A stretch of 38,359 nt of DNA from a virus. The notes beneath the pieces were generated by a model. That model was not told the origin of the DNA, made no database searches, and worked only from the letters and a program-made list of their open reading frames with translations. Where the stretch lies: IMG/VR virus record IMGVR_UViG_3300042559_001102, positions 1 to 38,359 of that record; one strand, 5' to 3'. The position numbers and the translations under genes are program-made. This document shows, in pieces, positions 4,939-37,662 of this stretch; positions within the stretch are counted from its first letter, which is position 1, and every line of letters begins with the position of its first letter.

Positions 4939-5136
4939 TTAGGGTTCTCCACTATCGTAAATGAGAGCCTTGTTGGAGTTTGGAATAAAATAATCTCTTA
5001 TTTTAGTTAAGCTGGGGTAAATTGATTGCTTTTCAACGCACATGCCATCTCCGTGTGCCCAAAATATAAGTACTCCTTGTTCATTGTAGTACCACATATT
5101 CAAAGCGTTATCACTGATGGTATGCGTTACGAACAT
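4939..5136 (-). CDS. 65-aa paralogous array protein, copy 3
   Basis: Starts MFVTHTISDNALNMWYYNEQG and ends IYDSGEP. It is clearly homologous to the next copy upstream (shared VTH, NALNMWYYNEQGVLIFW, LT(K/E)(I/L)R, FIPNS, IYD.GEP). The gene is 2 bases from its neighbours on both sides. The codons of the final Gly-Glu (GGAGAA) provide the Shine-Dalgarno of the following gene. The small beta-rich protein has no known domain; it may be an inhibitor or binding module that diversified by duplication. Confidence 0.75.
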   Translation of the reverse strand: MFVTHTISDNALNMWYYNEQGVLIFWAHGDGMCVEKQSIYPSLTKIRDYFIPNSNKALIYDSGEP

Positions 5137-5138
5137 CT

Positions 5139-5336
5139 TTATGGTTCTCCATCGTCGTAGATACGAACATCGACGGAATCCGGAATAAATGAAGACCTTA
5201 GTTCAGTTAAACTAATAAAATGGGACTTCTTTTCAAATTCTACATGATCATTTTCCATCCAAAACATAAGTATCCCTTCCTCGTTGTAATACCACATAGC
5301 TAAACTATTACTTGGCAGTTGGTGAGTTACAATCAT
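5139..5336 (-). CDS. 65-aa paralogous array protein, copy 2
   Basis: Starts MIVTHQLPSNSLAMWYYNEEG and ends IYDDGEP. Same length as copies 1 and 3, with the same WYYNEEGILMFW core and SLTELRSSFIPDS helix region. Its last codons GGAGAACCATAA form the ribosome-binding site of copy 3. Function unknown. Equal length and fixed 2-base spacing point to tandem duplication followed by drift. Confidence 0.75.
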   Translation of the reverse strand: MIVTHQLPSNSLAMWYYNEEGILMFWMENDHVEFEKKSHFISLTELRSSFIPDSVDVRIYDDGEP

Positions 5337-5338
5337 GA

Positions 5339-5536
5339 TTAAAGATCTCCGCTATCGTAAATGATTTCATACCAACGACTAGCTGGATTATAATAATGAT
5401 CCCTTATGTCCTCTAAATGTATACAAGAAGCTTCTAACTCTTCATCATGCCACTCAGCCCAGTAGTACAACTTTCCATCATCCTTATAATATAGCATGAA
5501 CAGCTCATTAGTTGCATGAACGTATAAAATAATCAT
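5339..5536 (-). CDS. 65-aa paralogous array protein, copy 1
   Basis: Starts MIILYVHATNELFMLYYKDDG and ends IYDSGDL. Its LYYKDDGKLYYWAEW core and LEDIRDHYYNP segment align with copies 2 and 3 at lower identity, and the LEDIR motif links it to the 72-aa fourth member. The GGAGATCTTTGAG leader is just after the helicase stop. The GGAGATCTTTAATC before copy 2 is nearly the same string, so leader and coding end were duplicated together. Confidence 0.75.
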   Translation of the reverse strand: MIILYVHATNELFMLYYKDDGKLYYWAEWHDEELEASCIHLEDIRDHYYNPASRWYEIIYDSGDL

Positions 5537-5550
5537 CTCAAAGATCTCCT

Positions 5551-7281
5551 CTATCTATTATTCTTAAGGTATTGGATAACTTCCATCATCACCGATTGCT
5601 GTGCCTGTGCGTATTCCTTTGTACCTTCTACTGCCGCTTCAATGATTGCAGCCTTCCTTTGAAGAAGTTCGTTCATGAAAGCATCTACCGTTCCGTTGAT
5701 CTCTGCATACACAGAAGTTGCACCGTGCACATCATTCAATCGTCCATATGCACGAGCTTCTGCTTGTGTGTGATCTTTTGGAGTCCATGCAAGATCGTTG
5801 AAATAGATTGTAGATGCAGCGGTGATGTTAAGTCCTTCTTGTCCGGTAGGAATTGTAAGACAGAGAACTCGTGTAGATGGATCAGATGTAAACTTATCTA
5901 CCATCTGCATACGTCGAGCTAACGGAACATCACCGAAGATAACATCACAACCAATCTCTGCCGCCACTTGGCGAACAGGAAGAGTGAAGTTAGAAAAGAC
6001 TAGAATCTTTTCATCTGTTTCTTCCAGGAAGTTCTGTACATACTCTACCGTATGATCTGCCTTTGCGTCTGCAACAATCTGGCGAAGACGGTTAAGTTGA
6101 ACGAGCGCATTCTGAATGTCGATCTCCTTGCCATCAATCGTCTTATAGATTCCTTCGAGTGCTGACTTATAACGTTCAGCATGAAGGGGAGACAACGATA
6201 CAGAATGTGTGATGCGATTGATAGGAGGAAGATCGGTTAGAACATCTCGCTTCGCACGACGGAACATATATGGAAGCAAGGCTTTTTGTAGCTTCTCTGG
6301 ATTACGTGGCGCACCACTTCCGTTAGCATACGTGTTAAGGAAAGATTGTTCGGAAGGAAAACTATTCGGTGCAACCCAGTGAAGAAGAGGAAAGAGTTCT
6401 GGCAAACGATTAACGAGAGGAGTTCCCGTCATGGGAAGTTTGCGGGGTGCATTCATCTTAAGAATAGCCTTAGTTCTCTTGGCTTTCATGTTCTTAAATG
6501 AATGTGCTTCGTCTGCTACAATACAATCTAGCATACCAGCGGCAGCTAATGTATTGAAGAGGTTAGCCCACGGATGAGAAGTAATCTCCTTGCCATCCTT
6601 TTCTTCTACGATCTCTGTTCCTACTACTTCATAGTTAAGAATGAAATAGCGAAACTCTTTCGTGAAGAGCGCCCGCATACAAGTTTCATCGGGGATTCTC
6701 CCACCTAAGATGACGGGACGGGAGTTTGTTAGCTTGCGAATCTCACGATCTAGATTGTGAACGAGTGCAGCTTTGGTAAGAAAGATTGTGCGGTATTTAT
6801 TTTCCTCTACTAACTTAATAGATACTGCTGTCTTTCCTAGTCCCATGTCGAGAGCGAGGATTTTGTTATCTTGATTAAAGTTAAGATAACGAAATGCCGC
6901 AGCTTGGAAAGGACGTAGAGTAATTGGTCCGAGAGTATGGTCAATCTCTGGAGCTTCGTTTGCAACTGCATAGTCATAAGACAACCTCTCTCGATTAAGA
7001 ACTGATTCGATATACGTAGATGTATGCGAATCAATGGTGAAGTTAAGATGCTTGTACGAAGATGTGAGGAGATTGTACAGGTTTGGAGTTTCTTCGAGAG
7101 GGATATTAAATCCACTACCGAATGTGTTGTGACGGAAATCGTTGAACGAATGAGGAGGAAAGTAAACATCCTTCGCAAGCGTAACGATCACACGTGTGGA
7201 TGATTGCTTACGAATGTCGAGATGAATTACTCTTGGAGTTATGTTCTCGGTAACGCTTGAAGTTACGTTTGGAGTTGTCAT
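5551..7281 (-). CDS. SNF2-type superfamily 2 helicase/ATPase
   Basis: A 576-aa protein with a full set of helicase motifs: a Q-motif-like LRPFQAAAFRYL (122-133), motif I DMGLGKT (145-151), motif II DEAH (257-260), motif III TGTP (285-288), motif IV ILVFSNF (426-432), motif V GQEGLN (480-485) and motif VI QAEARAYGR (506-514). The layout matches SNF2/SMARCAL1-like DNA translocases common in phage replication modules. Residues 1-120 form an N-terminal region without a known domain. The ATG overlaps the previous stop (ATGA) behind GAGGTGAATCT. It probably remodels replication forks or recombination intermediates together with the ATPase and nuclease of this operon. Confidence 0.92.
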   Translation of the reverse strand: MTTPNVTSSVTENITPRVIHLDIRKQSSTRVIVTLAKDVYFPPHSFNDFRHNTFGSGFNIPLEETPNLYNLLTSSYKHLNFTIDSHTSTYIESVLNRERLSYDYAVANEAPEIDHTLGPITLRPFQAAAFRYLNFNQDNKILALDMGLGKTAVSIKLVEENKYRTIFLTKAALVHNLDREIRKLTNSRPVILGGRIPDETCMRALFTKEFRYFILNYEVVGTEIVEEKDGKEITSHPWANLFNTLAAAGMLDCIVADEAHSFKNMKAKRTKAILKMNAPRKLPMTGTPLVNRLPELFPLLHWVAPNSFPSEQSFLNTYANGSGAPRNPEKLQKALLPYMFRRAKRDVLTDLPPINRITHSVSLSPLHAERYKSALEGIYKTIDGKEIDIQNALVQLNRLRQIVADAKADHTVEYVQNFLEETDEKILVFSNFTLPVRQVAAEIGCDVIFGDVPLARRMQMVDKFTSDPSTRVLCLTIPTGQEGLNITAASTIYFNDLAWTPKDHTQAEARAYGRLNDVHGATSVYAEINGTVDAFMNELLQRKAAIIEAAVEGTKEYAQAQQSVMMEVIQYLKNNR

Positions 7282-7580
7282 AGATTCACCTCGTTTTCCG
7301 TCGTCATGTACTGATGAAGGATTTCGTTGTAAAACTCTCTGTCAAACTTAGTTGCACGTTCCTCCGCTGTAAAGAGTTCGGTAAAGATTGATTGAATAAT
7401 CATTACCGTATATTCTCCTCGGCGAACTTCACGTGTCCAGTCCGCATACGAATAGTTAAAATCAACTTGATTGTATGCCCAATCAAAAATGTATCGACGA
7501 ACCTCAAAAGGATCATTGATATTGATTGGAATACGAAAGTCCGTGTCATGCATATGAGTCATGAAGAGTTTCAGAAACAT
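7278..7580 (-). CDS. hypothetical 100-aa protein
   Basis: ATG at 7580 behind GGAGAACTAAATC; that leader lies over the last codons and stop of the upstream gene. It overlaps the helicase start by 4 bases. Aromatic and acidic, with predicted helices (residues 25-45 and 58-95), and no recognised domain. Coupling to the helicase suggests a partner, by context only. Confidence 0.72.
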   Translation of the reverse strand: MFLKLFMTHMHDTDFRIPININDPFEVRRYIFDWAYNQVDFNYSYADWTREVRRGEYTVMIIQSIFTELFTAEERATKFDREFYNEILHQYMTTENEVNL

Positions 7581-7583
7581 GAT

Positions 7584-8360
7584 TTAGTTCTCCGAAAGAT
7601 TGTTAGTGTTGCGGTATTCTACGTGAGTGGATACAGAGTTACCGACAGATGAAATAGTGTAGGATGTAGGAGGTTCTTCTACTACGCTATTCATATGATT
7701 GCGTCGAGTCTCTAGAAGATCTATCACTTCTTCTGTTTCACTATCTTGCAACATGATAAGAGATAGTGCATGCTTTAGAGAAGATAGTTGATCTTCGAGG
7801 GGAATGATAGTGTTAATGGGAGCGGATAATACACGCCCACTAAGCTTATCGGCTAGCGTTAATGTACCGCCAACGCGAAAGTATCTATCATCCAGTGCGT
7901 TATATCCGAGAGAGATTACTTCTCTCCTAAGTCTCTTGCGTTCACGATTGATTGCATACGCAAGATCACCGGTGATTAGTGCGTTACCCGTTGTGGAAAG
8001 AGATGCCGCAAGTTTGATAGCCTTGAATGCAGCAAACTTAAACTTAGCTACTTGAGAACGATTGCTCTTGTCGAGAGATACAAACTCGTATCCATTAACA
8101 AAGATAATCGCAATGTCACATCCGGTGCGTTGGATATGAAAGAGATCGTTGTCGGCTAGGCGAAAGGAAATAATGGTGCGCCAGTTTGTGGCGATATCAT
8201 TATCATCCGCATAGGATTGAAGGACTAGATGCGCGGTTCTAGAGAGATTATCTACTAGAGATTCTAGTGCTTCGGGAGGGATGGATGTTAAGTCCATGGA
8301 AATTGTCCGGTTTGGAAGAGGATGGAATGAATGGAAATGACAATGGCATAAACAAATCAT
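7584..8360 (-). CDS. hypothetical protein of about 237-260 aa, uncertain start
   Basis: The body (from MDLTSIPPEALESLVDN, ATG at 8297) looks like a genuine alpha-helical protein with a basic stretch NRERKRLRREV. Three starts compete. ATGs at 8366 and 8360 lie 2 and 8 bases after a GGAGG box, while the ATG at 8297 has no ribosome-binding site. I use 8360 for its ideal spacing. The extra N-terminus this adds is rich in Cys and His (CLCHCHFHSFH), either a metal-binding tail or a sign that the 8297 start is right. No family is recognised. Confidence 0.68.
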   Translation of the reverse strand: MICLCHCHFHSFHPLPNRTISMDLTSIPPEALESLVDNLSRTAHLVLQSYADDNDIATNWRTIISFRLADNDLFHIQRTGCDIAIIFVNGYEFVSLDKSNRSQVAKFKFAAFKAIKLAASLSTTGNALITGDLAYAINRERKRLRREVISLGYNALDDRYFRVGGTLTLADKLSGRVLSAPINTIIPLEDQLSSLKHALSLIMLQDSETEEVIDLLETRRNHMNSVVEEPPTSYTISSVGNSVSTHVEYRNTNNLSEN

Positions 8361-8430
8361 AATCATAGCCTCCGTAGCCTTGTCCGGAAGTGAAGATGAG
8401 ATGTTTATGCCATTATCAATTTCCTACATT

Positions 8431-8964
8431 TTACGCCTTGATACCAAGCTGTGCCATGATTGCAGCAGCAAGCGCGATCGGATCATTCGCGTTCGCCTTC
8501 GCAAGTTCGGTGAGCTTATCAAGCTTCATCTTCGCACCTTCACGCGCACCACGCTCGGTCGCAGCAAAGATGTTAACTTCTTCCGCCGCATCCTTTGCAA
8601 GCTCTTCCGCATTAGTAGGAAGAATCTTCGCATCCGTCGTGCGGGCACGAACAATCTTAACCGTATCGTTGCGCTCAGCATCATTCAGAAGCGAAAGAAC
8701 GACTTCGTCAAAACGCTCTTCGGTGACGCCGCGGGAAATTGCGGAAGCCTTCGCGTCAGCAACACTAAGATACTGACGAACAAGAATCGAAGCGGGAGAA
8801 ATCTTAATAACGGGAACGTTACGCTTCGACTCACCAGCACCAATAGAAGTAGAAGGAAGATGCGGATAATCTTCCGCCTTAACCGAAGAAGCTGCAAACT
8901 CAAAGAACTTCGGTTCGCCCTTAGCAGTTTCCGACTTACCAGCCGCAACAAGTGTGAACGACAT
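8431..8964 (-). CDS. hypothetical 177-aa Ala-rich protein
   Basis: ATG at 8964 behind GAGGTAGTT. The sequence starts MSFTLVAAGKSETAKGEPKFFEF, is rich in Ala, Lys and Glu, and has a long helical C-terminal half (from about residue 100). It is the first protein gene after promoter P2 and follows a structured, apparently untranslated stretch that includes the tRNA-like RNA. No domain is recognised. The favourable site and first position suggest strong early expression; a DNA-binding role is possible but unsupported. Confidence 0.75.
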   Translation of the reverse strand: MSFTLVAAGKSETAKGEPKFFEFAASSVKAEDYPHLPSTSIGAGESKRNVPVIKISPASILVRQYLSVADAKASAISRGVTEERFDEVVLSLLNDAERNDTVKIVRARTTDAKILPTNAEELAKDAAEEVNIFAATERGAREGAKMKLDKLTELAKANANDPIALAAAIMAQLGIKA

Positions 8965-9508: not shown

Positions 9509-9826
9509 TCATTCTAGAACCGTCCACTTAAGATTGGAGGTGATGAAAGAAAGAACTTCGGGAGTATAAGAATCCAATGCGATTGGAGACTTTCCATCTT
9601 CGATGTAGAAGGAAATGTTGAGATCTTCTAGGAGTTTTCGAAATTCTCCATCTCCCGTCCATGCACGCAGGCCATTCTTAACATCCACGATGAAAGTGAT
9701 GCCATAATCGCCATCACTATAATGCTTGTAATTGGCAATAATAGAATGGCGAAGTGCATCATGGAGATTATCGAATGTCTCTAGGATGTTTACGTTACGG
9801 TAAACAGTGGCGCATGAATAATACAT
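9509..9826 (-). CDS. hypothetical 105-aa protein
   Basis: I start it at the ATG at 9826 (MYYSCATVYRNVNILETFDN) because AAAGGAGAAATC precedes it. A longer frame runs back to 9871 without a site. It is mixed alpha/beta and ends ITSNLKWTVLE. The phrase FDNLHDALRHSIIANY resembles the DNP-helix phrase of the two neighbouring small proteins, so distant relation is possible. Function unknown. Confidence 0.7.
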   Translation of the reverse strand: MYYSCATVYRNVNILETFDNLHDALRHSIIANYKHYSDGDYGITFIVDVKNGLRAWTGDGEFRKLLEDLNISFYIEDGKSPIALDSYTPEVLSFITSNLKWTVLE

Positions 9827-9836
9827 GATTTCTCCT

Positions 9837-10064
9837 TTAGTCGTTGTCGAATGACGGGAATTTTGTACCAAGTGAGAGCCAATCGTTTAAGGATACTCTC
9901 TTAAGTACCTTAAATGAACAACCAGTTTTTTCGGCGCAGTTTTCTGCAAATTCCGTTGCATCCTTAGGGTTATCGAAGGGAAAGTAAGTCATGAATTCGA
10001 TGTCTGGGGAGAACACAACAAACTTCGATTTGATCTTACTTGGTGGAATCACAACGTTACACAT
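9837..10064 (-). CDS. hypothetical 75-aa protein, paralogue of the 10219-10416 gene
   Basis: ATG at 10064 behind AGAGGAAACTAAAAG. It has a strand region (KSKFVVFSPDIEFMTYF), then FDNPKDATEFAENCAEKTGC and VLKRVSLNDWL. The second half aligns with the 65-aa gene on the far side of tRNA-Leu (DNPEDVRYFANHFRSLGW, VKTLSMKEFI), so the two are paralogues. The pattern suggests a small beta-alpha-beta fold. No known family. Confidence 0.72.
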   Translation of the reverse strand: MCNVVIPPSKIKSKFVVFSPDIEFMTYFPFDNPKDATEFAENCAEKTGCSFKVLKRVSLNDWLSLGTKFPSFDND

Positions 10065-10118
10065 CTTTTAGTTTCCTCTGATTTGGAGTGAAGTGATAAT
10101 GCTGAAGAAAAAGAAAAA

Positions 10119-10200
10119 TGCCCCGTGTGGGAATCGAACCCACAAGTCGTTAGACGAGAGATTTTAAGTCTCTTGCGTTTACCAATTTCGCCAACGGGGC
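10119..10200 (-). tRNA. tRNA-Leu(UAA)
   Basis: The minus strand from 10200 gives acceptor GCCCCGT paired with ACGGGGC, D arm GCGAAATTGGTAAACGC, anticodon arm AGAGA-CTTAAAA-TCTCT with anticodon TAA, a long type II variable arm (CGTCTAACGACTT) and T arm GTGGG-TTCGATT-CCCAC. The discriminator at 10119 is A, as expected for leucine. CCA is not encoded. The T loop is identical to that of the tRNA-like RNA and of the tRNA fragment at 11196-11232. It lies between two paralogous small genes and is probably made from promoter P3. Confidence 0.95.
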
Positions 10201-10218
10201 AAACCATCCAGAAGAAGT

Positions 10219-10416
10219 CTAGATAAACTCTTTCATACTCAGAGTCTTTACGGTCACATTCACCGTCCAACCCAAAGAGCGGAAATGGTTGGCAAAATAC
10301 CGAACATCCTCGGGATTGTCCGAAACCATGTACTTGGTAAAATCAAGTTTGGTTCCGTGGGCCTCAAAATCATTATGAATGACTTCGAGAGTATATCCCT
10401 TCTTTTCGCTCGACAT
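10219..10416 (-). CDS. hypothetical 65-aa protein, paralogue of the 9837-10064 gene
   Basis: Start ATG at 10416 (MSSEKKGYTLEVIHNDFE) chosen because AAGGGGTTTGTT precedes it; a longer frame to 10452 would cross the promoter's start point. Shares VSDNPEDVRYFANHFRSLGW and the SMKEFI ending with its paralogue across tRNA-Leu. First gene after promoter P3. Function unknown. Confidence 0.72.
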   Translation of the reverse strand: MSSEKKGYTLEVIHNDFEAHGTKLDFTKYMVSDNPEDVRYFANHFRSLGWTVNVTVKTLSMKEFI

Positions 10417-10442
10417 AACAAACCCCTTGGTTTGGTTGGTGA

Positions 10443-10661: not shown

Positions 10662-10925
10662 TTAATACCCTCCATAGGAAATGAAAGACGAATTTCTTGA
10701 ATCTTCGTATGGAAGTGCAAAGACACATTTTACACACATTGCAGGAAAACCAAGGCCATCATGAGAGTAGAGAAACTGTTCACCAGTTTCGTGATAAATA
10801 AACTCTCCCCACTTTGATATGTGTTCGCGGATCTCTTTGCATTCCTCTGTCGAAAGGTTATTGTCACTTCCGTTATGAAGGAAATTTAACCAATACACAG
10901 GAAGATACTTCTCGGTAGTTTTCAT
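10662..10925 (-). CDS. hypothetical 87-aa protein
   Basis: Start ATG at 10925 (MKTTEKYLPVYWLNFLHNGSDN), after AAAAAAGGAGAAAACAAAAG. The longer frame to 11009 overlaps the upstream gene and lacks a site. Contains CKEIREHISKWGEFIYHETGEQ, then AMCVKCVFALPYED, a single CxxC knuckle. A small cytoplasmic protein of unknown role. Confidence 0.7.
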   Translation of the reverse strand: MKTTEKYLPVYWLNFLHNGSDNNLSTEECKEIREHISKWGEFIYHETGEQFLYSHDGLGFPAMCVKCVFALPYEDSRNSSFISYGGY

Positions 10926-10959
10926 CTTTTGTTTTCTCCTTTTTTTTGTTGTGGGGTTT

Positions 10960-11148
10960 TTAGCTTGAACAAGAAGTGCAGGAACCATAGAGAAGGAGAT
11001 CTCGCTCATCTAAAGAGAGATATGGAAAGGCAGTTTCGATTGTTTCTCCCTTTCTCCAATTAGAGTAATCGGAGGAATTTACAGCAATGAGAATGTGATC
11101 GCCACACTCGCCGCAGAATGCATGAAGAATCTTATCTCTGACTTTCAT
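10960..11148 (-). CDS. 62-aa putative zinc-ribbon protein
   Basis: Start ATG at 11148 (MKVRDKILHAFCGECGDHILI) preceded by a weak AGAGAGAAAATAAAAG site. Two CxxC knuckles, Cys12-Cys15 and Cys57-Cys60, could bind one zinc ion. The longer frame to 11298 runs into the tRNA fragment and palindrome and is rejected. It lies directly downstream of the large palindrome. A nucleic-acid-binding role is plausible for such a fold but not shown. Confidence 0.65.
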   Translation of the reverse strand: MKVRDKILHAFCGECGDHILIAVNSSDYSNWRKGETIETAFPYLSLDERDLLLYGSCTSCSS

Positions 11149-11195
11149 CTCTTTTATTTTCTCTCTTTTTTGGTTGGTGAAGAAACTACGAAAAA

Positions 11196-11232
11196 TGGAA
11201 GTCTTGGAATCGAACCAAGAGTTAGCGCCAGC
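11196..11232 (-). other. tRNA 3'-half fragment (T arm plus acceptor strand)
   Basis: Minus strand: a perfect T arm CTTGG-TTCGATT-CCAAG (11219-11203) followed by ACTTCCA (11202-11196). An ACTTCCC unit at 11261-11267, inside the iteron array, could pair 6 of 7 bases as the 5' acceptor at exactly tRNA-like distance. However, no D or anticodon stem forms between them. The piece is therefore a tRNA remnant, an attP-like core copied from a host tRNA 3' end, or a degenerate tRNA built over the palindrome edge. No integrase is seen in this window. Confidence 0.5.
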
Positions 11233-11563
11233 CTTCCAAAATACAAAATGGTTTCCCATGACTTCCCACGGATTCCCACGGATTCCCCGACTTCCCAAGC
11301 GTTTGTTGGGTATGGTAGGGGTAGGTGGGTAGGTAGAGGTAGGTAGTTGTTGTAATTAATTATTAAATATATAATAATTATATTAATATATATATATATA
11401 TATCTATCTATATAATACAATATATAGATATATACATATACTAACTTACAACTCTACCTTCCTACCCTACCTCCTGAGTGCCATACCCGAAAAACGCTTG
11501 GGAAACTTGGGAAAACATGGGAAACCTTGGGAAAGCATGGGAAAAATATTTGTATTCTTGAAT
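11233..11563. repeat. giant imperfect palindrome with phased iterons (candidate origin)
   Basis: A roughly 330-bp inverted repeat centred at 11398. Core arm: 11294-11315 and 11481-11502 match in 20 of 22 positions (CCCAAGCGTTT...GGGTATGG). Five TTCCC units at 11253, 11263, 11273, 11283 and 11292 are mirrored exactly by five GGGAA units at 11500, 11509, 11519, 11529 and 11539, about one helical turn apart. Between core arms and centre lie a G-rich GGTAGG tract (left) and its C-rich partner (right), then about 90 bp of almost pure A/T. Outer arms continue to AATACAAA/TTTGTATT. No gene fits. Iterons plus an AT-rich core suggest a replication origin; a giant hairpin or telomere-like site are alternatives. 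Confidence 0.8.
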
Positions 11564-11565
11564 TT

Positions 11566-11592
11566 CCGAAAAAGACGAAAAAGCCGAAAAAG
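11566..11592. repeat. three 9-bp tandem repeats
   Basis: CCGAAAAAG, ACGAAAAAG and CCGAAAAAG follow each other without gaps directly beside the right arm of the palindrome. They may be a further protein-binding array of the candidate origin. The next 160 bases up to the 135-aa gene hold a small hairpin (GATATT/AATATC, 11594-11611) and nothing coding that I can support. Confidence 0.55.
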
Positions 11593-11755
11593 TAGATATT
11601 AAGAGAAATATCCATTTTCGAGAGTTTGGTGAACCCTGGAAATTCCGCCGATTTCGTTTTGTTTCGGAAACTCCAAAAACCTCCTAAACCATTTTCCATT
11701 TTCCGGAAAGAGTCTAGGAAGTTTTTGAAAAGGGCTAGGTCACGGGAGATTTCAC

Positions 11756-12163
11756 TTAGTATGGCAAATCATTCGGAATGTTGTTTCCGAAAACCTTTGC
11801 CATTTCTTCCTTCTTCAACTTCTCTGCTGCCGTCGGAATCAATCCGATGTTAGTGGAAACAATCTGTTTCCAGTGATTGAATCCAGCAGCCTTCGTCATA
11901 ACGATTGCGGTGCGGCGGACGTTGTTTTCCAGATAGGAAAGTCTTTCCATTGCACCGGCGGAAACTGTCTTGCGAACGGCTTCGATGTGTTCCTCTGACA
12001 TGTTTGCGGCAATCATGGCAGAAATCGCCAAGCCTACCGCATTTACTTTCTCGCCGAGTTCTTCACGTTCGCGCAACCATGCCGTGACGTTTTCTTGCGT
12101 CAAGCTCTCAAGGATTTGCGTCGGAGTCTTGCGGGTTGCGTTCTTCTTTGCGTTGCGTGGCAT
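11756..12163 (-). CDS. hypothetical 135-aa basic helical protein
   Basis: ATG at 12163 behind GGAGATTACG. The first 14 residues (MPRNAKKNATRKTP) are strongly basic and the rest is helical, with an Ala/Met-rich centre. It stands alone between the 15-bp repeat array and the giant palindrome. This position and the basic arm would suit a DNA-binding protein acting on one of the two arrays, but no known DNA-binding fold is recognised. Confidence 0.75.
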   Translation of the reverse strand: MPRNAKKNATRKTPTQILESLTQENVTAWLREREELGEKVNAVGLAISAMIAANMSEEHIEAVRKTVSAGAMERLSYLENNVRRTAIVMTKAAGFNHWKQIVSTNIGLIPTAAEKLKKEEMAKVFGNNIPNDLPY

Positions 12164-12260
12164 CGTAATCTCCGGTTTTGGTTTGGTTTGGCGCGGCCAC
12201 AGAAATGTAGCTCACACGCCCTGGGCGACCGCCCGTAACCTAGCCTATGTCAAATAGCGT

Positions 12261-12279
12261 TCATACGATAGACGTATGA
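12261..12279. repeat. 7-bp inverted repeat, operator-like
   Basis: TCATACG-ATAGA-CGTATGA is a perfect palindrome with a 5-base centre, located about 100 bases upstream of the leftward 135-aa gene and before the repeat array. Size and symmetry suit a dimeric repressor. No clear -10/-35 pair was found beside it. Confidence 0.4.
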
Positions 12280-12390
12280 CACAATACGAAGGTAACATAT
12301 CCGCCAGAACGCGCCACCGAACAAAACCCGAATTGTTTGTAACAGATATATTTGTACCGCTGGTTCTATACCTTACCACTAATGTAAATA

Positions 12391-12602
12391 TCTCACAACT
12401 ACATATCTCGCTACTAAGATATATCCTTCCCCTAAAGATAATAAGAACGCATTATCATTAAACATATTATCTCACTACTAAGCATCTCACTTCTAAGGTA
12501 TAACCCTCTGTATATCTCACCACTAAGATTCTTACTTCTACACTTCTCACCACTAAGTATCTTACTTCTAAGACATCTTCCTTCCATTATCTCACTGCTA
12601 AG
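12391..12602. repeat. 15-bp direct repeat (iteron-like) array
   Basis: A 13-base core, consensus TCTCACTACTAAG, recurs on a 15-base step at 12391, 12406, 12470, 12485, 12515, 12530, 12545, 12560 and 12590, with weaker copies at 12424 and 12576. Around 12515-12574 two variants alternate (TCTCACCACTAAG then TCTTACTTCTAAG), giving a 30-base higher-order unit. The array lies in the gene-free gap 12164-12873, between the leftward early and rightward late modules. It is probably a binding array for a phage replication, partition or transcription factor. The remainder of the gap (12603-12873) is AT-rich with no gene I can support. Confidence 0.8.
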
Positions 12603-12873
12603 ATGTTTCGTTTAGTGGAAATGATAATGATAACTCAATACCGGGGAGGGGGGAAATCAGCGAGTCCGGAGAATAGTTATACCACCCCCATAATTTTTCT
12701 AATAAAATTTTAAGCCTCCGAATAAAAATAAAAATAATTTTTATACCTCTTCTATGCTTACACACTATTTTTATACTTATACACGAGTGGCTATCTTCCC
12801 AAACCATCCCCTTTGTAGTACCTTATCAATGAGATCGAACACCCTTACAAACAAAAACCTTGGAGAGTATCTT

Positions 12874-19294: not shown

Positions 19295-19335
19295 TCATTA
19301 TTCTCCGAACCAGCGCAGTTGCAGTTCCCACGAAG

Positions 19336-19393
19336 TGGAGCGAGCAACGCGAGCGGAACGAGTGAAAAAGCGCGAGCGGCGAAGGCCGCGAGC
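19336..19393. repeat. GC-rich GAGCGAGC-type repeat before portal
   Basis: A stretch of degenerate GCGAGCG/GAACGAG units (GAGCGAGCAACGCGAGCGG and following) in the 141-base gap before the portal start. It resembles the repeat at 10511-10540. The portal frame is open through it from a TTG at 19319, but its composition is unlike the neighbouring coding DNA. Confidence 0.5.
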
Positions 19394-19435
19394 TATAGAA
19401 CCTTTCCTCTTCCTTTCTTCTCCTTCATAAGAAAA

Positions 19436-21310
19436 ATGTATAACCGCCACGTAAGTCTAACGGAAGAGCAACATAAAGATATTGTGGCGTGGTTGGAAAC
19501 GGAACTCACCAATCATCTTTCTGAGCGTGAAGAACTTATAAATAAGTTCATTCGCTACCAGTCAGACTACCTGGCGGAGCCCTCTACAGAGGTGGCCACC
19601 TTCCCCTTTACGGGCGCCTCTACTATTATTATTCCGTTGACGGCCATTGCACTTGAAGCTGTTCATTCGCGAACAATGCAAACAGCCTTTGCACATGAAC
19701 ACAACATCAGTGCAAAGATTAAGAATCCAAAGATCTCTGATCTAGAGCCAGAACTTGAACGCTACCTCCATGATGAATTTATGGTTGGTGGTGAATTCAA
19801 GAGAAAGCTCGAACCAGCGATTCTTGAAATCGAAAAGCTAGGTACAGGTGTATCTGAGGTAAGTTATTGTTACTCTGTTAAGAGGGGATTAAGAATTAGC
19901 GAAGACGGAAAAGAAGAGGAATTCGAAGTCATTCTGAAGAATGGCCCTGAATTTAATTCGGTTCCGGTCGCGAACTTCATGATGCCATTCGACTGTAACG
20001 ATATCCAAGATGCACGGTGGTGTGGTAAAGTCTTCTGGTTAACTCCAAATGAAATTCGTCAGCGCGAGTTTGATGGTTTTTTTATGGAAGGAACATATGA
20101 GAAGTTAGAACATATGTTTTCTCCTGGAGCCGAAGATCTTGATACTGCATCAAAGTACCGAGACTCTGTTCGTGAGACAACTTTAACTGATCCTGTTTGG
20201 CCTACCGAAGTAGAATTCTATTCGATTTGTACTTCTTGGGAAATTGCAGAGGGTCGTTATGAAGAGTTCTTCATCCTCTATCAGCGTGAACTTCAGGAAA
20301 TTGTAGGCATCTGGAACAACTGGTACGATGATCTTCGTCGTCCTTTTCATAAGGCTGTCTACTTTCCTGTAGAGTTTCGCTGGTATGGTATTGGACTTGC
20401 AAAGCAAAATGAACAGTTTCAGTACGAAGTAACTGCACAACATCGTACGCGACTGGATAATGCGTTAATTGCAAATGCGCGTATGTACAAAGTGAAGCGT
20501 AACACTGGAATCAAAGAGAACGAACCCATCTTCTCTGGTAAGTTTTGGTTTGTCGATGAGATGGACGACATCCAACCGATGGAGATGGGCGATGTAAAGG
20601 CTTCTGCGTATAACAATGAAAACCAAGTTATCATCTTTGCGCAGCAACGTAGTGGTGTAAATGATCTTACACTTGGTATGCCGAGCGCAGGAACTCCAGG
20701 AACTGCAACATCAGAGATGGCGCGAGTTCAGGAAAGTGCACGAAAGTTTGATTACTCTTATTCAAATATTCGCACATTCCTTGATGAAAATCTTAACTCT
20801 GGTTTGCTTGTTCTTGCTCAGTGGGGTCCAGATGTTGAACGTCTTGAATTTAATCCTCGCGGCAATGAAATCGAAACGTTTCTTAAGAGCCCCTTTGAAT
20901 TCTTCCGCAAGAAGATTCTCGTTGATCTTCGCCTAGCCGGACAGAATCAAAACAAGTTTAAGGATCGTCAAGATGCAACACAACTGGTTGGAATTTTCCA
21001 GCAATACTATACTAATCTTATTACGTTGGCGCAGGGGATGCAGAATCCAGAACTTCTTCAGCAAGTTAGCTCCAAGGCATTTGAAGGTGCAAATCTTGCA
21101 ATGCGACATATCATGGAAAGCTTTGATATTCGTAATCCTGAGAGGTTCCTCATAAACCCGACGAACAATGTCCAGCAACCTATCCCCGCTCCAACGCCAA
21201 CAACTCCGGGAGCTTCTCAACCTCCCTCAGTCCAAAGTAATTTGGTCCTTGCTCCAAACGCATCAAGCATCTTACCTAACCTCCCTAACCTCCCAGCACA
21301 ATTGGGATGA
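19436..21310 (+). CDS. portal protein (podovirus type)
   Basis: A 624-aa head-tail portal. I start at ATG 19436 (MYNRHVSLTEEQHK), since the extra N-terminus from TTG 19319 is encoded by a GC-rich repeat. Marks of the podoviral portal family are an N-terminal FPFTGASTIIIPL block, a stem/clip region around VWPTEVEFYSICTSWEIAEG, and a crown-side segment QQRSGVNDLTLGMPSAGTPG followed by TATSEMARVQESARKFDY. The portal forms the dodecamer through which TerL pumps DNA. The last 50 residues are Pro/Ser/Asn-rich and overlap another reading frame. Confidence 0.88.
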   Translation: MYNRHVSLTEEQHKDIVAWLETELTNHLSEREELINKFIRYQSDYLAEPSTEVATFPFTGASTIIIPLTAIALEAVHSRTMQTAFAHEHNISAKIKNPKISDLEPELERYLHDEFMVGGEFKRKLEPAILEIEKLGTGVSEVSYCYSVKRGLRISEDGKEEEFEVILKNGPEFNSVPVANFMMPFDCNDIQDARWCGKVFWLTPNEIRQREFDGFFMEGTYEKLEHMFSPGAEDLDTASKYRDSVRETTLTDPVWPTEVEFYSICTSWEIAEGRYEEFFILYQRELQEIVGIWNNWYDDLRRPFHKAVYFPVEFRWYGIGLAKQNEQFQYEVTAQHRTRLDNALIANARMYKVKRNTGIKENEPIFSGKFWFVDEMDDIQPMEMGDVKASAYNNENQVIIFAQQRSGVNDLTLGMPSAGTPGTATSEMARVQESARKFDYSYSNIRTFLDENLNSGLLVLAQWGPDVERLEFNPRGNEIETFLKSPFEFFRKKILVDLRLAGQNQNKFKDRQDATQLVGIFQQYYTNLITLAQGMQNPELLQQVSSKAFEGANLAMRHIMESFDIRNPERFLINPTNNVQQPIPAPTPTTPGASQPPSVQSNLVLAPNASSILPNLPNLPAQLG

Positions 21311-36700: not shown

Positions 36701-37477
36701 AAGCCATACCTTTATGGACAAATTTTTGGTACTGGAATTGAGACTATATTAGACAAAGCAGTTGGAGATAATCCGCAAGCAATCGAACAGTTGATGCAAG
36801 GTATCTGGGGACAGACTGCCATCAATATTCTTCCTCTTTCTGCACAAGGGTTAGCTAATACGGCCCTTGGTCAGAAGTATCTTGGTTTAGGTGAAGGGTT
36901 AATTCCCTCGGGTGGTTCTACGAATAATCAAATGGCGGGAGATCAGCGATTCCAGAATACAACAACTCTCGCACGAACTCTTGGTGATAAGACTGGAATT
37001 CCTGCGGCTAATTGGGATGACTTAATGAGAACCTTCCTTACGAATGAGCCATATAAAGTGGTGGCTCTTGCGGATAGGATGATTACAAATCGCACCTCTC
37101 CAACTAGAGAGGATGTTCCTTTGGTGGGTAAGTTCTTTCCCACACAAGATAAGTCTAACGTTGGAAGTGTGAATAGGTTCTATGATCTAGCCAACAAGTA
37201 TGCTAACGTATTAAACTCTTTGAATGATGCAGAGAATAAAGGAGATGTAGGTAGGTTAAATAAGCTAATTGATAACAATCTCCCTCAGATCGAACAAGCA
37301 ATGGTATTTGCAGAAGGATTAAAGGAAGTACAAGAAATGCGAAGTGCGATTAATCTTATCAATGAGAATCAGATGATGACGCCAGAAGAGAGAAGGAAAA
37401 TGATTACTGAATTGAACAAGGGAATTAGAGATTATGCTGTGCTATTTCTTGATGCGTGGGATAGCAAAAAGAAATAA
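33794..37477 (+). CDS. giant internal virion / polyvalent-type protein, 1227 aa
   Basis: ATG overlaps the previous stop behind GGAGGTAAATA. The N-terminus has acidic repeats (VDDILFG, VDDILFA). Residues about 70-220 are Ala/Gly-rich with hydrophobic helices (GKVAESLG, VLPSAAVGGALAKSIF). The C-terminal part, about 720-1100 (SLPRTLFSLVNDLTLSGPMRD, YQRVLAAGGGIGGRY, ARITAFMNMGIQSVDKF, ISIPAIALWYYG), resembles a C-terminal domain of large polyvalent phage proteins injected with DNA. Probably ejected into the host. No lysozyme or protease motif is seen. Ends directly before the terminator. Confidence 0.72.
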   Translation: MTSPFQPRIDPEVDDILFGRAEDPSDVDDILFAKPKKASLFDRGLSAAVAGGGDIAANVFGGLGKVAESLGKERSWFSDVSDRFKATASKHKAALAADPADTLGEKTTEFVGNVLPSAAVGGALAKSIFNPITSSLARTKFAGTAARISQLASSNKAVQKGVAAGIVSAPAEIAGSLATTALTTPEDTFSGTSAVGAGIGIALNTFSAGRAFSTAAKQAKIAAAMNPESIAPDAVNAAFEDALTGARKTAQQAARLFRTNFVGSKKNPINAPYVPPELKSAYTNVNKILKSLDVDGPTLKNVEALAAEQQRLIDIADGMYNLNRDAIDEKQFKALLESVTKIESISLPQYNWAAPTPTVAALQRLQDNLEVEGPLRLNPNAKLGTIEALIAGERPKSPSAYTGINKWFQTIREQYVNYKNPLKVFGTEGAEDPYNVALRLSGNNGRVYQNLEVQPKMLNKATGEWEDAMIDGKKVKSLREVLEISGTDDESLAKLNAYVIAKQLANSADPNMRPTAKLTISGYSPEFAKKELETLIKERPDIQAAGEEFFLRTKMMAEYMRDLVGDEVADEWLKIDYAPASRALQTKGDPFGFRIGRTGGSEMVYNPIVKHIENTQIAIAATEKTRMWQRLHDVISSNKDKYVSSATIVETNQKVLQRTYDAVKKANPDMNEVALRKIANLMASTAVDKSSKSVSYLKDGQMRTIRFSDDFMEMFNGFEGPAELGVFGQIGQKMESLPRTLFSLVNDLTLSGPMRDMAEVYVNDPNVKPGLRGMASMFVDTMKGLKEVWTEGDLYQRVLAAGGGIGGRYVGPTGGFAATSFEEMKRRADKEMPNVLRKLEEVSANLSQASRMGAAMRVFANGGSDNEAAKIFRAVIADPQQIGSKMQSAARITAFMNMGIQSVDKFATQARNNPELVAMKGFAGISIPAIALWYYGRNDSEIQQLRGSKGGENYFYVRFTEDSPLLRIPKPYLYGQIFGTGIETILDKAVGDNPQAIEQLMQGIWGQTAINILPLSAQGLANTALGQKYLGLGEGLIPSGGSTNNQMAGDQRFQNTTTLARTLGDKTGIPAANWDDLMRTFLTNEPYKVVALADRMITNRTSPTREDVPLVGKFFPTQDKSNVGSVNRFYDLANKYANVLNSLNDAENKGDVGRLNKLIDNNLPQIEQAMVFAEGLKEVQEMRSAINLINENQMMTPEERRKMITELNKGIRDYAVLFLDAWDSKKK

Positions 37478-37482
37478 AAAAA

Positions 37483-37523
37483 GCCCCGCCCTCTCGATGC
37501 GTTGAGAAGGTGGGGCCTTTTTT
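37483..37523 (+). terminator. strong bidirectional rho-independent terminator
   Basis: GCCCC-GCC-TCTC pairs with GAGA-GG-GGGGC around an 8-base loop, followed by CCTTTTTT on the plus strand and preceded by an A run that serves the minus strand. It ends the late rightward operon 5 bases after the 1227-aa gene and also faces the convergent leftward genes. Confidence 0.92.
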
Positions 37524-37662
37524 ATTGTCCGAAACTTTTTTCTATATTCCCACTTTCGAGAAACTTTACACACTCTCTTGGATAGAAGTAAACTCCGATC
37601 AGCATCAAGATGAGAAGGATTAGAAAAGGCCTCTTCTCTTTCTCTATGAATTTAATTGGCAT
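37522..37662 (-). CDS. 46-aa single-span membrane protein
   Basis: ATG at 37662 inside the end of the upstream zinc-finger gene (19-base overlap), stop TAA at 37524-37522 at the terminator edge. The product has a charged N-terminus (MPIKFIEKEKRP), one clear membrane helix (FLILLILMLIGVYFY, 13-27) and a polar C-terminus. No strong ribosome-binding site, so coupled translation is likely. Could be a small membrane toxin, holin-like or inhibitor protein; unknown. Confidence 0.65.
   Translation of the reverse strand: MPIKFIEKEKRPFLILLILMLIGVYFYPRECVKFLESGNIEKSFGQ

Follow-up and report, generated by a model that had tools for sequence, protein, structure and literature searches.

What is the role of a near-palindrome of about 330 bases in a viral genome, when five short units on one side match five on the other and the centre is rich in A and T? 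The element is found in IMG/VR virus record IMGVR_UViG_3300042559_001102, whose 38,359 bp constitute the whole stretch of DNA that was analyzed (here called the window). This record is listed as complete and is classed as linear. To our knowledge, replication origins have not been identified for most phages. We propose, with a probability of about 65%, that the palindrome is the origin of bidirectional DNA replication for this virus, in which arrays of initiator sites flank an AT-rich unwinding element.

Layout of the palindrome

An initial sequence-only reading had described two mirrored arrays of short repeats, and all its coordinates were found to be correct when the sequence was checked again. 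In the left outer array (11253 to 11296, plus strand), five TTCCC units begin at positions 11253, 11263, 11273, 11283, and 11292. Each is the exact reflection about 11398 of a GGGAA unit in the right outer array (11500 to 11543, minus strand), where the corresponding units begin at 11539, 11529, 11519, 11509, and 11500. The two arrays are the only clusters in the whole window that have at least four such units within 40 bp. The steps of 10/10/10/9 bp between units had been taken to mean that all units lie on one face of the helix. This is roughly true but not exact, since the steps sum to 39 bp, which corresponds to approximately 3.7 turns at 10.5 bp per turn.

When aligned without gaps, the two arms (11234 to 11315 and 11481 to 11562) are each 82 nt long, are 77% complementary, and are separated by 165 nt. 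A gapped alignment reveals that the mirror symmetry runs on through a G-rich or C-rich segment into the A+T core. Three layers are thereby distinguished: the outer TTCCC array, an inner box that ends in GGGTATGG and leads into the G-rich segment on the left or the C-rich one on the right, and the A+T core. The left inner box, CCCAAGCGTTTGTTGGGTATGG (11294 to 11315, plus strand), is mirrored by the right inner box (11481 to 11502, minus strand) with two differing positions, as previously stated. The left G-rich segment (11316 to 11349, plus strand) carries GTAGG repeats and is an imperfect mirror of the right C-rich segment (11450 to 11480, minus strand). The AT-rich middle was likewise borne out, given that positions 11350 to 11449 are 91% A+T and include one run of 51 bp that is purely A/T. 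This core is the proposed unwinding element.

The palindrome received a score of 62.3 in our palindrome scan. The null distribution was built from the best palindrome found anywhere in each of 60 dinucleotide-shuffled windows, and these scores had a mean of 21.9, a standard deviation of 1.75, and a maximum of 26.4 (Gumbel p of about 8e-14). The element centred at 11398 is thus by far the window's strongest palindrome, and it stands well clear of anything in the shuffled sequences. When folded as single-stranded DNA, it has a predicted energy of -80 kcal/mol (z = -14.7). Matches to Rfam families on the palindrome were all below gathering scores and reflect the noise of a long hairpin. The second-best gapped palindrome of the window (37456 to 37553) is located where the late and early modules converge, between their ends, and is probably a two-way terminator.

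Close relatives and gene context

A search based on the terminase yielded three relatives: G1 (IMGVR_UViG_3300008113_000098) and G4 (IMGVR_UViG_3300031885_000024), which are about 49 kb each, and L062 (IMGVR_UViG_3300035663_000133), which is 20.5 kb. Symmetric iterons are present in these close relatives, and the element occupies an equal map position in all three. It is whole in G4 (19316 to 19580) and in L062 (1747 to 1993), and is represented by two halves in G1. These halves sit at the two ends of the G1 contig, which starts and stops in the A+T core of the palindrome. This arrangement is most simply explained by an assembly break at the palindrome. The window, G1, and G4 contigs open at three different points of one circular map, which are located in early genes, in the palindrome, and near the early/late convergence, respectively. 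The ends of the G4 contig (L020 1 to 600 and the end of L022) carry G+C-rich repetitive DNA that is unmatched in the relatives and is either an insert or an assembly artefact.

The possibility that the structure is an assembly chimera, in which a sequence is joined to its own reverse complement, had also been raised. We reject it because the arms of a chimera would be identical, whereas these arms are only 77% alike, and because the relatives share the element at the same map position. The four genomes that carry it have differing flanks. DNA similarity to the palindrome was not found among annotated phages, and a search of genome contigs for a host by means of the terminase returned no relative.

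The left arms of G1, G4, and L062 have the same arrangement as that of the window, with five units each in steps of 9 to 10 bp. Right arms in the close genomes carry four to six units, some of which are degenerate. Each of the eight arms in the four genomes retains GGGTATGG, while other positions vary. Furthermore, the two arms change alike within each clade: the window and G1 each carry CCCAAGCG on both arms, and most arms of G4 and L062 have CTTG, then G or T, and then a run of T residues. Alignment scores between the two arms of one genome range from 75 to 99, which equals or exceeds the 55 to 91 obtained for the same arm between the two clades, and shuffled arms score 12 on average with a maximum of 33. 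Concerted change of this sort would be expected if a single recognizer read both sets of sites.

To the right of the palindrome is a late module of the short-tailed-phage type, including terL (phrog_38), portal (phrog_1216), and endolysin genes. The leftward early module encodes a PD-(D/E)XK exonuclease, an SNF2-type helicase, and a pyrimidine dimer glycosylase. A piece that is absent from the window and present in G1 encodes a split family-A polymerase (PolA), a DUF3987 protein, an AAA_24 ATPase, a GroES-like protein, and a dATP/dGTP diphosphohydrolase. The polymerase is carried by two genes in both G1 (L017 16008 to 18687) and G4 (L020 1798 to 4597), with a small ORF or a gap between them, and the front gene carries a uracil-DNA-glycosylase domain.

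The sequence-only reading had placed the site between the early and late modules. It is indeed near their divergence, but it is actually set about 1 kb into the leftward early module, and one conserved leftward gene (11756 to 12163, minus strand) separates it from the divergence point. The 135-aa product of this gene was considered as an initiator and rejected, as its all-helical model (pLDDT 79) has no fold match and the protein was found in the close clade only. To the left of the palindrome, the first leftward gene (10960 to 11148, minus strand) encodes a small CxxC protein with homologues in L062 and G4. Farther left, a tRNA-Leu(UAA) gene (10118 to 10201, minus strand) is shared with G1 and EBPR podovirus 3 and was not found in G4 or L062. 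Three tandem leftward ORFs of equal length (65 aa) that are spaced at 200-bp steps (4939 to 5536) are apparently duplicated genes.

A tRNA-like RNA element (11197 to 11237, minus strand) touches the left end of the palindrome. It has an acceptor-like stem and a T-arm with the loop TTCGATT, and lacks an anticodon arm. On the minus strand its order is GGAAG, a 12-nt loop, TCTTGG, TTCGATT, CCAAGA, and CTTCC. A hand-made alignment of the window, G1, G4, and L062 reveals conserved pairing with compensatory changes, wherein 11 of 11 pairs are kept in the four genomes and 10 of these occur as more than one pair type. The element would lie in the leader of a leftward early transcript, and our suggestion that it directs processing by RNase P or RNase Z is a guess. 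An attP integration site at this tRNA-like end was also considered. We discarded this candidate because a tyrosine integrase (PF00589) is absent from the window, G1, and G4, and because in each of the four genomes the tRNA-like stem is self-paired.

Similar palindromes in distant viruses

Terminase aside, the proteins common to nearly all the genomes that we compared are PolA and DUF3987. Distant genomes were chosen by their matches to these two proteins (about 20 to 32% identity) and were then subjected to a palindrome scan with local-composition scoring. Single outlier palindromes were observed in MW202554 (score of 64.3; next best 29.3), MW202489 (51.9; 22.5), vir526 (51.8; 24.3), OP947158 (37.9; 26.3), and Mel-JY34 (34.4; 23.0). 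OP947158 and Mel-JY34 (PP438425, palindrome at 44116 to 44304) are the weakest positives. Some control loci, which had been preselected for TTCCC repeats, reached 35. On the basis of deposited annotation tables, all five palindromes lie about 0.8 to 2 kb from the early/late divergence, as in the window. Like the window's element, each is an unannotated outlier in a genome that has PolA and DUF3987. However, they differ from it in unit sequence, unit number, spacer length, and A+T content, and do not align with it.

A matching geometry is seen in vir526 (BK063670, L076), whose record assigns a Methanomicrobiales host. There, in the region 385 to 782, TGCAT units at 393, 404, 413, and 422 reflect exactly, over a long spacer, onto ATGCA units at 770, 759, 750, and 741, as determined by arithmetic on the scanned unit positions. 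This 4+4 array is mirrored about 583.5 with steps of 9 to 11 bp, and has the geometry of the window's palindrome spelled in other letters.

No such palindrome was found in the control genomes T7, lambda, HMO-2011, A-4L, Muddy, and ANMV-1, for which the best scores were 21 to 24. The frequency of these palindromes outside the PolA and DUF3987 module was gauged from these six genomes plus further viral contigs totalling about 370 kb. VS-ABTNL-3, Tiera, Kuura, AeroP5, and EBPR3 carry the module and have no comparable palindrome, and the top ungapped palindromes of VS-ABTNL-3 and Tiera fall inside a large gap at the divergence. The genome of 119X has a borderline palindrome of 104 bp in its early region. 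In total, four close and five distant genomes have a conserved repeat and A+T-rich site at a fixed map position along with shared replication genes. The association with DUF3987 takes no account of relatedness, and selection of the distant genomes was itself based on PolA and DUF3987.

Pattern scans for TTCCC arrays returned mostly unrelated loci, and a second pattern based on the inner box recovered no new member. One hit, L033, is an otherwise unrelated phage contig that has four TTCCC units followed by an A/T run at its end (1 to 100). It encodes a PrimPol-DUF3987 protein (6543 to 8948) and an AAA_24 protein (9699 to 10439). This contig may hold half of a similar element, and a search for the other half did not find it.

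Candidate functions and known systems

The mirror symmetry persists in close relatives and distant viruses while the letters change, and for this reason we favour a replication origin. An origin recognized by a phage initiator had been among the first suggestions for this locus, and it is now the best supported of them, given the conserved layout and position, the gene directions, and the occurrence of palindromes in distant genomes with the module versus their absence from the six controls. Symmetry, conservation, map position, and co-occurrence with PolA and DUF3987 are direct observations. A pair of forks moving outward would suit the two-fold symmetry, the A+T core, and the orientation of almost every flanking gene. 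GC skew does not mark the palindrome independently of gene direction, because coding direction confounds skew.

From these features we infer a path from initiator binding through melting and helicase loading to fork movement. A putative phage initiator would bind in a row along the TTCCC units of each arm, forming two oppositely facing complexes that would both also touch the inner GGGTATGG boxes. The paired complexes would strain and melt the intervening A+T core, perhaps aided by extrusion of the palindrome strands. One helicase complex might then be loaded per arm. The candidate is the DUF3987 protein, as DUF3987 domains are predicted helicases that, in primase proteins, take the place of known helicase domains (PMC5862659). 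The two forks would diverge to the left along early genes and to the right along late genes, each co-directional with transcription.

An alternative in which the palindrome is a hub for transcription control is unlikely, albeit worth considering. Early promoters would be located in the A+T core, and the iterons would be operators for a regulator of the early-to-late switch. Consistent with this idea, the site is near the early/late divergence, the tRNA-like element and then the first leftward genes lie left of the core, and all three sigma-70-like sites in the region 10900 to 12800 fall within it. However, promoter-like sites are no more numerous than chance predicts (3 versus 4.4 expected), and a rightward promoter would run antisense to the gene at 11756 to 12163, which points towards the palindrome. 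Moreover, five matching units per side over 330 bp exceed the symmetry needed for divergent regulation. A double role as origin and promoter region, as at herpes oriS, is possible. We regard as quite improbable a site for packaging, recombination, or cruciform resolution that is acted on by terminase or a junction-cutting nuclease. The palindrome could extrude as a cruciform, and a putative small terminase gene (14270) is about 2.7 kb away, but pac sites are usually in or beside this gene. In addition, cruciform cutting does not require phased short units on both arms, and the position of the palindromes in distant genomes tracks the early side rather than the terminase.

Short phased repeat arrays are also typical of partition sites, and a centromere-like element could keep a circular genome as an episome. 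A 119X relative is reported to be pseudolysogenic (PMC13348215), which favours such a role. Nevertheless, we consider it very improbable, as no ParA/ParB-type gene was seen beside the palindrome in the window, G1, or G4, and partition sites do not usually take the form of mirrored arrays about an A+T core. The sequence-only reading had also suggested a telomere-like site, at which a linear genome with closed hairpin ends would be resolved. The G1 contig does begin and end in the palindrome core, but assemblies commonly break at palindromes made of A and T only. The arms are not identical (77% complementary), and three contigs open at different points of one circular map. Likewise, a protelomerase of the known family (PF16684) is absent from the window, G1, and G4, whereas a control search finds the family elsewhere. 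These facts leave a telomere hardly credible.

At somewhat less than even odds, the origin reading can be extended to an undescribed class of two-fold symmetric origins. Such origins would be inherited with the PolA and DUF3987 module among short-tailed phages and also in at least one virus with an assigned archaeal host. Their mirrored, helically phased arrays would recruit the DUF3987 protein or a partner, with letters that vary by lineage and a geometry that is kept. If true, a simple palindrome scan would locate the origin in a whole phage group and in at least one archaeal-host-assigned virus, and would provide a direct route to the initiator and to the function of DUF3987 proteins. A host is on record for Mel-JY34, a deposited Microcystis phage, and this would make the origin reading testable.

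Among known systems, the telRL site of N15-type phages is also a long palindrome in a circularly mapping phage genome. The element in the window differs by its imperfect arms and iteron arrays, and by the absence of a known protelomerase. The iteron origins of Rep_3 plasmids and lambda (whose ori has four iterons) likewise place short repeat arrays beside an A+T-rich stretch. Here, however, the arrays are mirrored on both sides and are built from 10-bp units rather than units of about 18 to 22 bp, and lambda lacks such a palindrome. A Rep_3 initiator (PF01051) is absent from the window, G1, and G4. DnaA boxes (TTWTNCACA) have no match between 10737 and 33319, and thus none at the site, and their total in the window is as expected by chance. 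Our literature search agreed with the sequence-only reading that no phage element or origin with this layout has been described, although most subscription papers fell outside the search, and the evidence for novelty is therefore weak. Unannotated elements of this kind are nevertheless present in at least five other deposited genomes.

A two-fold symmetric layout is better known from herpesviruses than from phages, and the origin reading would imply that a herpes-like origin of this form exists among tailed phages. Herpes simplex oriS and oriL have inverted recognition sites on either side of an AT-rich spacer, an arrangement matched by the mirrored arrays and the core of 91% A+T, where the arrays would serve as initiator sites. 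In a model for oriS, two protein dimers bend and melt the AT-rich spacer, and the herpes origin establishes that inverted initiator sites and such a spacer can work as an origin (PMC12543377). The UL9-type origin-binding helicase (PF02399) has no match in the window, G1, or G4, and therefore the element is not a member of the herpes type, though its layout would work alike. It is further distinguished from oriS and oriL by five short helically phased units per arm, an A+T core of 100 bp, and a second, inner box.
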